Source: Acidobacteriota bacterium (GTDB lineage: Bacteria; Acidobacteriota; Terriglobia; UBA7540). From it: a DNA stretch of 34,032 nt. Location: NCBI GenBank assembly GCA_902812365.1, contig CADDZC010000044.1:1-34032 (forward strand), in the 5' to 3' direction. How positions within the stretch are numbered: the stretch's first letter is position 1; each line of letters starts with the position of its first letter. The notes under the pieces are model-generated. The model saw only the letters and a program-made list of their open reading frames with translations. It made no database searches and had not been told where the DNA came from. The position numbers and the translations under genes are program-made. This document shows positions 4,799 through 6,824 of this stretch, piece by piece.

Positions 4799-5065
4799 CT
4801 ATCCTTCGGCGCCCTCGCAGACGCGGATGATCCGCTCTAACTCATTCCACGGGATATAGATCCGGGCGCCGAACCGCACCGAGCGTATCTTGCCGGAATT
4901 GACCCACCGGTAGAACGTTGATCGGCCGCACTGAAGGCCCGTCCGGCTCCTGAGAATCCTCCAGGCATTGTTGGGAGGCAGCACGTGTCCGAAGGGTGTG
5001 TCCGGACCAGCCCTCAGGCCCAGCTCCGCGGTCGGGAAGGCGAAATCGGGGGATTCCTGAGGCAT
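4799..5065 (-). CDS. Excisionase/HTH_17-type DNA-binding protein
   Basis: Small protein (88 aa) whose second half fits the MerR-like/excisionase helix-turn-helix fold: WRILRSRTGLQCGRSTFYRWVNSGKIRSVRFG followed by ARIYIPWNELERII. In that fold the recognition helix is followed by a wing and an 'R-I-x-x-x-x-E-L' strand/helix. I chose the ATG at 5065; the frame continues upstream to a TTG at 5110 but without a better ribosome-binding site. Such proteins act as recombination directionality factors or small regulators, but no integrase or phage gene is nearby, so the role is open. It lies downstream of, and on the same strand as, the Cys/His-motif protein at 5204-5638. Confidence 0.65.
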   Translation of the reverse strand: MPQESPDFAFPTAELGLRAGPDTPFGHVLPPNNAWRILRSRTGLQCGRSTFYRWVNSGKIRSVRFGARIYIPWNELERIIRVCEGAEG

Positions 5066-5203
5066 GGCTGTTACAACCTCGTCTCGAAGGGAGTACGAAC
5101 GGCGCGACAAAGGTTCGCGCCGGCCCGGCGGACGTTCCGGCGGGGTGAGCGCCGCTGGGCGGCATTCAATGCCAGACGGAACGCGTCGCGGGCCCGTCCG
5201 GAG

Positions 5204-5638
5204 TTAATCATCCAAAAATGATTCGCGTTCGGCCGCCAGGCGGCGCCGGTCGCGGCTCCGCCAGTTTTCGTCGGGCTCATCATTGTCCGGGCAAAGCACG
5301 CCGTACTTGGCGCGCGCGACCACGAGGGACGTCGGCTGGTGCGAGGTATAGAGCTTCGGTTCGCGCAACTGGCGGTCATGATGAAGGCATCGGCCTTCTC
5401 GCCCGGGCTCCGCCGGAAACACGCAACCCTTTTCAATGCAGCGGGTTGGCAGAGTGGTTGGAGCCGCCGCGAACGTCGCCGCCGGGAGGCTTAAAAGTTT
5501 CGGCGGCGGAGCGCTCCACGCCGGCGGCGGAGCGAAAGGCGGATGACCCCCCGCTGGCGCTGGAAGCAACCGGGTCGCAGACGAGACCGACAAGGTTTGG
5601 GGGCCGGAAAGGCCCGGTAGGCTGTGTGGCGTTCCCAT
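5204..5638 (-). CDS. Hypothetical protein with a C-terminal Cys/His cluster
   Basis: 144-aa protein. The first 60 residues are Pro/Ala-rich and probably disordered. The second half has a compact motif, C67-x4-C72-x11-C84-x2-H87, followed by the conserved-looking REPKLYTSHQPTSLVVARAKYGV and a charged C-terminus. The C/H spacing suggests a small metal-binding (probably zinc) domain; the function is unknown. The start at 5638 is supported by CAGGAG seven bases before the ATG; the frame is open further upstream but with Arg/Pro-rich noise. It is divergent from the XRE regulator at 6363 and upstream of the HTH protein at 4799, so the three may belong to one accessory module. Confidence 0.6.
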   Translation of the reverse strand: MGTPHSLPGLSGPQTLSVSSATRLLPAPAGGHPPFAPPPAWSAPPPKLLSLPAATFAAAPTTLPTRCIEKGCVFPAEPGREGRCLHHDRQLREPKLYTSHQPTSLVVARAKYGVLCPDNDEPDENWRSRDRRRLAAERESFLDD

Positions 5639-6134
5639 AGTAGCACTCCTGTGTGGTGTCAATACGGTGAGCCTGACGGTACAAAAGCAGCGATTTGGGC
5701 GGCAGCAACTGAACGAAAGCCCGGGCGAAGGGGCGGCCGGCGTGCGCGGTGGAGAGAGGCTCAAGTGATGGCGCCGCCGTGTCATTCTGTCCCCAGGCCT
5801 GTAGCCTATCGAGGCGTCGCGTGCGTCCTATTTTTCGCTTGCGTTGTAGCCTAGGGTATGGCAGAGTGGCCGGGGATGAGCAGGAAAGCCTAAGGCCGCC
5901 GAGCCTGGCCCCCCGCGGCCGGGCCGCCAGCGGCCGGCGGGGCAACGGGCACTGCTCAAGCGATGCCCGTGTCAAGGGGTCAATGATACCCAGGAGATGC
6001 GGTGTAAGGCCAGTCCAGGTTCCGCGCGAGGCTGTGAGGGAGTTCGCAAGACGCCGGCGCGGAGGGTTGACGGAGGTGTGGGGACCGCTTGTTACCATAT
6101 CATGTACGTTACCATCAAGTAAATACCAGCGCCC
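5639..6134. other. Long intergenic region upstream of the 144-aa protein
   Basis: About 500 bp without a supportable gene. It contains GTAGCCTA twice (around 5801 and 5848), with a third copy near 6313 inside a promoter candidate. A very GC-rich self-complementary stretch lies around 5905-5950, and a pair of GTTACCAT repeats ends the region. I found no tRNA or known riboswitch signature in it. Confidence 0.35.
6091..6115. repeat. Direct repeat GTTACCAT x2
   Basis: Two identical octamers start 17 bp apart (6091-6098 and 6108-6115), separated by ATCATGTAC. Same-face spacing is not exact, but tandem sites like this are common as regulator-binding sites. The XRE regulator about 250 bp away is one possible ligand; this is inference only. 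Confidence 0.3.
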
Positions 6135-6165
6135 AAAAAAATTCCGTCTCGACCATAAGACGGAA
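6135..6165 (-). terminator. Intrinsic terminator of the leftward small transcript
   Basis: Minus-strand order: TTCCGTCT, an 8-nt loop, AGACGGAA, then a run of seven T's (6141-6135). The stem is a perfect 8 bp. No annotated gene lies directly upstream on this strand, which is why a small RNA is proposed. Confidence 0.7.
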
Positions 6166-6302
6166 ATCCCTGACGTCACTACTCGGGACACTCGGCGCCC
6201 CGAGCCCCTTCCCAAGCTGGGGAGCTCCGCGTTCGCCGGCCCGAGGCACGCCTCTCGATGCGGCACTAGGCCACGCCGAGGACGCTATCTCCTGACGCGA
6301 AT
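6135..6302 (-). ncRNA. Candidate small RNA (about 168 nt) with its own promoter and terminator
   Basis: On the minus strand a TTGACA-N17-TACCAT promoter (6337-6309) predicts a start near 6302. A clean intrinsic terminator (stem 6165-6158/6149-6142, then seven T's) ends the transcript near 6135. Between them there is no good ORF, but there are several self-complementary segments, for example CTCGGG/CCCGAG around 6181-6204, and GCGTCA near the 5' end that can pair with TGACGT near the 3' end. It does not match 6S, SRP or tmRNA signatures that I know. It sits in the divergent gap next to an XRE regulator, overlapping that gene's upstream region on the opposite strand. Confidence 0.45.
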
Positions 6303-6308
6303 GACTAG

Positions 6309-6337
6309 ATGGTAGCCTAATGTCCTGGAAATGTCAA
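6309..6337 (-). promoter_or_regulatory. Sigma70-type promoter facing left, upstream of the small RNA candidate
   Basis: Minus strand: perfect TTGACA (6337-6332), 17-bp spacer, TACCAT (6314-6309, 4 of 6 with the key A and final T kept). It lies only about 25 bp from the XRE gene start on the other strand, so the regulator could control it. Confidence 0.5.
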
Positions 6338-6362: not shown

Positions 6363-6824
6363 ATGACAACGAAAATAGATATCGCCAAACTGGTGCGCCG
6401 GGTCCGGGAGCGCTTGGGAGTGAGCCAGGAGGGGTTGTCACGGCGATTGAACTCCACCAAAGGCGCCGTCCAGCATTGGGAACGGGGCCGGAACCGTCCC
6501 GACCTGGCCCGGCTGCTGGCCCTCCGCCATATCTGCCCCCCGGGGCCTGAGCGCAAGCAGCTGGACGCCTTGATCAAAGAAGCCCAATCCCGGGCCGTCC
6601 AACCTCCGGAAGGCTCGGTTGTACCCTTACAAAGCCCGCTCGCTCTTCATAAAGATAACGTCCGGCTCCGGCAGCAGATATCCCGCTTGGAGGCCCAGCT
6701 TCAGAAACGCAGTGAACGGTTGCGCATTCTTGAGGAACTCGCTGCCGACCTGCAACGGCAGATGTCGGAGTTGCGCGGCAGCAAGGCGACAGGCGTTTCG
6801 GGGACTTCCGTCACACCTTCTTAA
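6363..6824 (+). CDS. XRE-family helix-turn-helix regulator with C-terminal coiled coil
   Basis: 153-aa protein. Residues about 7-60 form an XRE/Cro-type HTH (VRRVRERLGVSQEGLSRRLN, then TKGAVQHWERGRNRPDLARLLALRHI). Residues about 97-137 form a heptad-rich helix (HKDNVRLRQQISRLEAQLQKRSERLRILEEL), suggesting dimerisation through a coiled coil. The ATG at 6363 follows GGGAGGT with 5-nt spacing. It is divergent from the small RNA promoter and from the 144-aa protein, and convergent with the HEAT-repeat gene. It probably regulates its own or the divergent transcript through the repeats in the gap, but the target is not known. Confidence 0.8.
   Translation: MTTKIDIAKLVRRVRERLGVSQEGLSRRLNSTKGAVQHWERGRNRPDLARLLALRHICPPGPERKQLDALIKEAQSRAVQPPEGSVVPLQSPLALHKDNVRLRQQISRLEAQLQKRSERLRILEELAADLQRQMSELRGSKATGVSGTSVTPS

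Follow-up and report, generated by a model that had tools for sequence, protein, structure and literature searches.

The segment from 6302 to 6135 of the window (the whole stretch of 34,032 nucleotides that was analysed, contig C44 of a draft genome of 3.5 Mb) is best explained as the promoter-proximal, prematurely terminated 5′ leader of a transcription unit encoding an FPA and an HTH_17 protein, with a palindrome-bound regulator setting the level of readthrough. We put the probability of this reading at about 0.5. The component parts recur in a conserved order and spacing and are linked to the FPA gene. The preliminary description had proposed an independent regulatory small RNA, a free-standing gene beside an XRE regulator. 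This proposal was not supported: the body of the RNA is conserved neither in sequence nor in structure, and the terminated unit stays with FPA where XRE is absent, findings that together argue for a cis-acting leader. Coordinates of all features are collected in Table 1.

Table 1. Positions of the leader, its signals and the neighbouring genes in the window
Feature	Positions	Strand	Basis or remarks
XRE regulator with HTH_3 and a coiled-coil-like C-terminal part	6363..6824	+	Domain search; orthologues
P1 −35 hexamer TTGACA	6332..6337	-	Sequence pattern; site shared with XRE relatives
TAGGCTA motif overlapping P1 −10 (candidate XRE operator)	6313..6319	-	Motif counts
P1 −10 hexamer TACCAT	6309..6314	-	Sequence pattern
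Terminated leader RNA, predicted, about 168 nt	6135..6302	-	Inferred from promoter and terminator
Intrinsic terminator hairpin	6142..6165	-	9 pairs, one G-T; loop 6
T7 tract	6135..6141	-	Directly after terminator hairpin
Palindromic element TTACTTGATGGTAA, candidate operator past terminator	6109..6122	-	Family consensus TTTACT-N4-AGTtA
Stop-free frame running past FPA start	5433..6098	-	ATG 24 nt after TTAC; amino acids unconserved
TAGSCTA site, one of pair 45 bp apart	5847..5853		Motif search
TAGSCTA site, other member of 45-bp pair	5802..5808		Motif search
FPA gene, variable N-terminus, C-x4-C-x11-C-x2-H zinc-finger-like domain, DRRR helix	5204..5638	-	Conservation
HTH_17 (excisionase/BldC-like) gene	4799..5110	-	Pfam PF12728, E 1.8e-7

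The promoter of the segment, P1, was located where it had been described, as TTGACA-N17-TACCAT on the minus strand (6337 to 6309) with 10 of 12 consensus positions matched, and was also found to be conserved in relatives. Three sites of this grade were present in 4 kb, compared with 0.8 expected in shuffles. The ATG of XRE, at 6363, is separated by 25 bp from the 5′ end of TTGACA. Comparisons were made across 39 genomes of one bacterial family, recorded as Acidobacteriota/Terriglobia and in some cases as subdivision 13, and XRE orthologues were detected in 30 of them at E ≤ 1e-20. Relatives of XRE in a named collection (28 loci) were all from Acidobacteria, Acidobacteriota or Terriglobia, three being labelled gp13 and one subdivision 13, and no match to XRE on viruses was found in IMG/VR.

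DNA upstream of XRE was compared at 30 loci, including the window, and at 23 of these a pattern search detected a TTGAC promoter that faces away from XRE and carries TAGSCTA at its −10. The motif was denser in XRE-upstream DNA (48 occurrences in 56.5 kb) than in the DNA flanking it (16 in 321 kb). TAGSCTA was present at P1 at all 22 loci carrying both XRE and FPA, in each of which FPA lies on the minus strand beyond P1, at none of seven XRE loci without FPA and at none of four FPA loci without XRE (22/0 versus 0/11; Fisher P = 5e-9, with kinship ignored). Locus L093, which has the motif but whose contig stops 640 bp upstream, was omitted from this count, while L092 was scored as lacking FPA on only about 709 bp of upstream DNA; the FPA loci without an XRE match on the fetched stretch were G001, G006, G022 and G032, with contig ends being near in the last two. 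This co-occurrence makes the XRE protein the likely reader of TAGSCTA and lends indirect support to the earlier suggestion that XRE controls the promoter of the RNA. At four XRE loci without FPA, all from one genus (L046, L089, L090 and L092), inspection by eye indicated that repeated TAGCC half-sites replace TAGSCTA upstream. A genome-wide TAGSCTA regulon was considered and rejected, a looser promoter pattern being only about as frequent as the control.

The hairpin and its seven T's were likewise present at the position claimed and were conserved better than expected by chance. In 9 of 27 related regions, a hairpin followed directly by T6 or longer was detected at a distance of 166 to 213 nt from TTGACA, compared with 0.87 expected from dinucleotide shuffles; a degenerate terminator in L035 brings the number of terminator loci to 10. 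In the other 17 regions, which include most other genera, no terminator of this kind was present in intact or degenerate form, indicating that the module can do without this arrangement. The terminator stems were wholly different between genus groups and pairing was nevertheless kept, with one compensated pair change (L041 versus g15) being seen by eye. The start and 168-nt length of the RNA are derived from the promoter. For this predicted RNA, the minimum free energy was −78.5 kcal/mol compared with a shuffle mean of −68.98 (z = −2.06; 5 of 200 shuffles as stable), and the fold contained both the GCGUCA/UGACGU closing helix that had been proposed to pair the ends and internal hairpins. In the window, the covariance models of Rfam 15 (6S, SRP, tmRNA, RNase P and sRNAs) gave no matches at the gathering score, in agreement with the earlier statement that signatures of the first four are absent. 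A permissive threshold gave only two chance matches between 5400 and 6400 (E 5.5 and 8.8), and ARAGORN detected no tRNA or tmRNA in the window.

The body of the RNA was then the part for which conservation was not found. Searching 101 genomes with the RNA as DNA returned the copy itself and one spurious 38-nt match in unrelated surroundings, and the nine leader bodies exhibited no alignable sequence. Structure conservation indices (SCI) were tested against column shuffles. For the window plus the g12 bodies the SCI was 0.30 (P = 0.13; P = 0.43 after trimming), while the g6 bodies gave P = 0.2 and, after trimming, P = 0.05 at an SCI of 0.35. The g15 bodies gave an SCI of 0.14 (P = 0.017), a signal obtained with the terminator included and due to the terminator being shared; after trimming, 0 of 60 shuffles reached the SCI of 0.13, on poor alignments. 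All nine bodies together had an SCI of 0 and no consensus fold. A shared body fold was, therefore, rejected for the window plus g12 and for all nine bodies, the g15 and g6 signals being weak and of very low SCI, and a conserved functional fold of the body has no support. A coding function for the RNA was also rejected, as the body aligns with nothing. The preliminary description had held that a small RNA would be refuted if the region proved unconserved and without covariation in strains that keep XRE; such a lack of conservation was found for the RNA body but not for the layout of promoter and terminator.

The terminated unit tracks the downstream gene rather than XRE, as indicated by a unit kept before FPA without XRE and by a second copy in the genome of the window. 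All 10 terminator loci have FPA downstream, on the strand of the terminator. In G001, which lacks both an XRE match and TAGSCTA, a promoter, a leader of about 200 nt, a hairpin-T7 terminator and the palindrome are followed by FPA, with its ATG about 150 nt beyond the first T of the run. The second copy (G000:C4:35670-35713) precedes a phage-tail-like gene rather than FPA and consists of TTGACA-N17-TACACT, a leader of about 86 nt, a hairpin-T7 terminator and, 19 nt on, the TTAC palindrome; the start codon of the tail-like gene lies 63 nt beyond the first T of the run. As in attenuator-type elements, a promoter and a gene on one strand flank an intrinsic terminator, with the gene following immediately in G001 and at the C4 copy. 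Genes for a terminase, a Mu-like portal, a Mu-like protease, a tail fibre and a weak tape-measure match occur in the surrounding DNA (G000:C4:25000-60000; L236 and L237). As the 128-amino-acid tail-like gene is present in 28 of the 39 genomes, mostly in single copy, the cluster may be domesticated, making it a candidate particle cluster. Among 28 of the 30 tail-like loci (L207 and L209 were excluded because their sequence is cut at the gene start), the composite preceded the tail-like gene only in this one genome. Co-occurrence of FPA and the tail-like gene across the 39 genomes was not significant (22/5/6/6; P = 0.06; an FPA match in G019 at E 0.005 was left uncounted).

The distance between the start of the T-run and the TTAC of a TTACTN4AGTNA palindrome was 19 to 20 nt in all 10 loci (the nine with intact terminators and the degenerate one), which span five genera (g1, g2, g6, g12 and g15) and vary in hairpin sequence and in distance from P1. 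A strict pattern (T6, 10 to 14 nt, TTACTN4AGT) was detected in 8 of the 39 genomes, whereas the reversed pattern occurred in none on either strand. Six of these matches were at FPA loci and two elsewhere, at G000:C4 and at G034:C163, where no hairpin was seen; the copy in the window is missed by this pattern, having GGT instead of AGT. A sequence model extending from the T-run to the palindrome (R1, trained on 11 copies, the G000:C4 copy included) matched, at E ≤ 1e-4 in the 39 genomes, solely the FPA loci of 10 genomes and the G000:C4 copy. In the next match (G014:C49; E 0.005), the palindrome lies just past a TTGACT-N17-TAGGCT promoter and the hairpin is absent, which is consistent with the palindrome being a DNA operator. 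The palindrome is described as a candidate operator, and any assignment of its binder is a guess. An IS200/IS605-like end, in which a hairpin lies near TTAC, was thought of as an alternative identity, but the element occurs once per genome and twice in the genome of the window. A promoter within the palindrome was rejected, as no consistent −35 and −10 elements were seen by eye.

The conserved same-strand genes downstream of the segment, FPA and HTH_17, did not figure in the preliminary description. FPA, whose start was chosen from an AGGAG ribosome-binding site and the length of relatives, is characterized by the pattern RCxxKGCxFPA...CxxH...EPxLFxSHQP...DRRR. It was present in 26 of the 39 family genomes and in 1 of 260 other genomes of the class (a weak match, with a stop), and no model in Pfam, NCBIfam, PADLOC or PHROG matched it. 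An AlphaFold2 model had a mean pLDDT of 78, rising to about 90 over the zinc-finger part. The first five Foldseek matches were A20 zinc fingers (E 2.4 to 4.2), as was the sole match in a PDB profile search (E 0.78). The core of FPA resembles A20-type fingers (PDB 3oj3 and 3vux) in its Cys/His spacing and predicted fold. In those fingers the last ligand is Cys, whereas that of FPA is His; the matches are weak and FPA has no ubiquitin context. Assignment of FPA as an A20-type Cys3-His zinc finger is, therefore, a lead and not a proof. HTH_17 comes after FPA in 24 of 26 loci, and none of the eight loci without FPA has it. In 8 of 10 loci an ATG 22 to 25 nt after TTAC opens a frame in which no stop occurs until the FPA start or shortly before it. 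These frames, compared in the window, L033 to L039, L041 and L150, were 34 to 218 codons in length (Markov P per locus, 0.0003 to 0.29); they are not called genes because their amino acids are unconserved and GC content by codon position is flat. At about 5448 to 5462 and 5859 to 5872 of the window are two copies of TGGCAGAGTGG-YYGG, which resemble a tRNA D-arm; ARAGORN finds no tRNA, and these are probably due to chance.

These observations are consistent with the following mechanism. P1 would fire away from XRE, and the XRE protein would probably repress it by binding TAGGCTA on the −10. Most RNA polymerase molecules would halt at the hairpin-T7 terminator, and the palindrome would be bound by a regulator that is most likely encoded in the operon itself, as HTH_17 or FPA. 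The footprint of polymerase extends about 15 to 18 bp ahead of the RNA end, and the edge of the palindrome, 12 to 13 bp past the T-tract, would approximate to the front of a polymerase paused in that tract. A protein bound there may promote or prevent release, setting the balance between termination and readthrough, with the leader RNA itself being a by-product. Roadblock termination by DNA-bound proteins is already known and, as described in PMC10310618, a protein on the DNA ahead of elongating polymerase can stall and terminate transcription; the roadblock proposed here differs in being registered to an intrinsic terminator. According to Naville and Gautheret (2010; PMC2965389), it is a strong argument for cis action when the link between a terminator element and its flanking gene is conserved, and synteny with the downstream gene is the chief indication by which computation can recognize a cis element. 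The leaders considered there share with ours an intrinsic terminator between promoter and gene, conserved downstream linkage and a body too variable for family models; ours differs from them in that no mutually exclusive antiterminator fold was found and in the presence of a palindromic DNA element at a fixed distance past the T-tract. The search for an antiterminator fold covered the 10 terminator loci, of which only G001 exhibited real competition with the terminator; the mean probability of the 5′ arm being paired inside the hairpin was 0.70 to 0.99 in nine loci and 0.29 in G001. The leader would be invisible to RNA-family searches because only the promoter, terminator and operator register are kept.

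In XRE-bearing genomes, FPA starts 240 to 700 nt past the T-run, and at eight loci, including the window, a pair of TAGSCTA sites 44 to 45 bp apart lies about 100 to 250 nt upstream of FPA, the 45-bp pair being unique within the genome of the window. The pair suggests a separate FPA promoter in such genomes, in which case the terminator may only insulate. P1 and the terminator would then be purely transcriptional parts shielding a second promoter and operator further down, and both the RNA and readthrough would be functionless. We regard this as possible but somewhat unlikely; the distance to FPA keeps it a strong rival, and the unconserved RNA body, the failure to find an antiterminator, the upstream TAGSCTA pair and −10-like TAGAAT and TAGAAA sequences (in L034 and L033, respectively) are in keeping with it. 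Retention of P1 at all 22 loci with XRE and FPA would, however, be odd for a promoter without a product, and both the fixed register of T-run and palindrome and the position of the C4 copy directly before its gene suggest regulatory use.

An RNA acting in trans or as an antisense RNA, for example on the 5′ leader of the XRE mRNA, appears improbable. Its discrete promoter and terminator would suit this role, as would a TTGA(C/T)(C/G)-N17-TAGSCT promoter facing XRE, found in all six g6/g15 loci (L035 to L039 and L041) at the FPA-upstream TAGSCTA site nearest the P1 transcript. This is possibly a distal XRE promoter antisense to the leader, and an XRE mRNA begun at this site would include a sequence complementary to the whole RNA. 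The same promoter is, however, missing in the window and in g12; moreover, there is no conserved body or seed, and the terminator unit exists where XRE is absent.

Late control in phage lambda operates through the pR′-6S RNA-tR′ arrangement with Q, and a module product might similarly load onto polymerase at P1 and let it pass the terminator, as for lambda pR′-tR′ or AlpA/GafZ. Such processive antitermination seems very unlikely here, although a promoter and promoter-proximal terminator do precede regulator genes and, at the second copy, the tail-like gene of the phage-like cluster, which also encodes a terminase and a Mu-like portal and protease. To our knowledge, a palindrome in fixed register past the terminator is foreign to those systems, and TAGSCTA is missing from the promoters of units without XRE (G001 and the C4 copy), tracking XRE instead. 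FPA, HTH_17 and XRE match no antiterminator model in Pfam, NCBIfam, PADLOC or PHROG; as unrelated antiterminators exist, this lowers only the case for membership in the lambda/AlpA/GafZ class. TAGSCTA does lie between the −35 and −10, the position of the QBE, ABE and ZBE elements described in PMC11150451. That the promoter and terminator arose by chance in the GC-rich gap, a reading with which only the modest z of the RNA fold accords, is hardly credible given the recurrence of TAGSCTA and the promoter, the excess of terminators (9/27 versus 0.87), the register in 10 of 10 loci and the composite in 8 of 39 genomes (six at the FPA locus) compared with none for the reversed pattern.

The layout recalls phage and gene transfer agent late control (lambda Q and, as described in PMC11150451, Pseudomonas aeruginosa AlpA and Caulobacter GafYZ/RogA), which shares with the unit a repressor gene, a promoter-proximal terminator and a short terminated RNA, with phage-like structural genes under control, as under the second copy in the genome of the window. 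The Caulobacter gene transfer agent is controlled by an activator and an antiterminator under the repressor RogA (PMC11150451), and the likeness of the XRE/FPA/HTH_17 module to it is one of layout only: the proteins are unrelated by the models searched, antitermination is here a proposal only and the link to a particle cluster comes from one genome. It is doubtful, if conceivable, that the module represents a phage-derived late-gene switch kept family-wide, in which XRE, FPA and HTH_17 would control their own operon and a domesticated phage-like cluster via registered terminator-operator units, by roadblock or antitermination. A literature search at the level of titles and abstract openings found no published description of such a leader or module. 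The analysis brings out a regulatory module of XRE, FPA and HTH_17, the second of these without family models, in a family known here from draft and metagenome-assembled records; this module may also be connected to a particle cluster of phage-like type. If the register is functional, it would pair a termination site with a DNA-bound protein.
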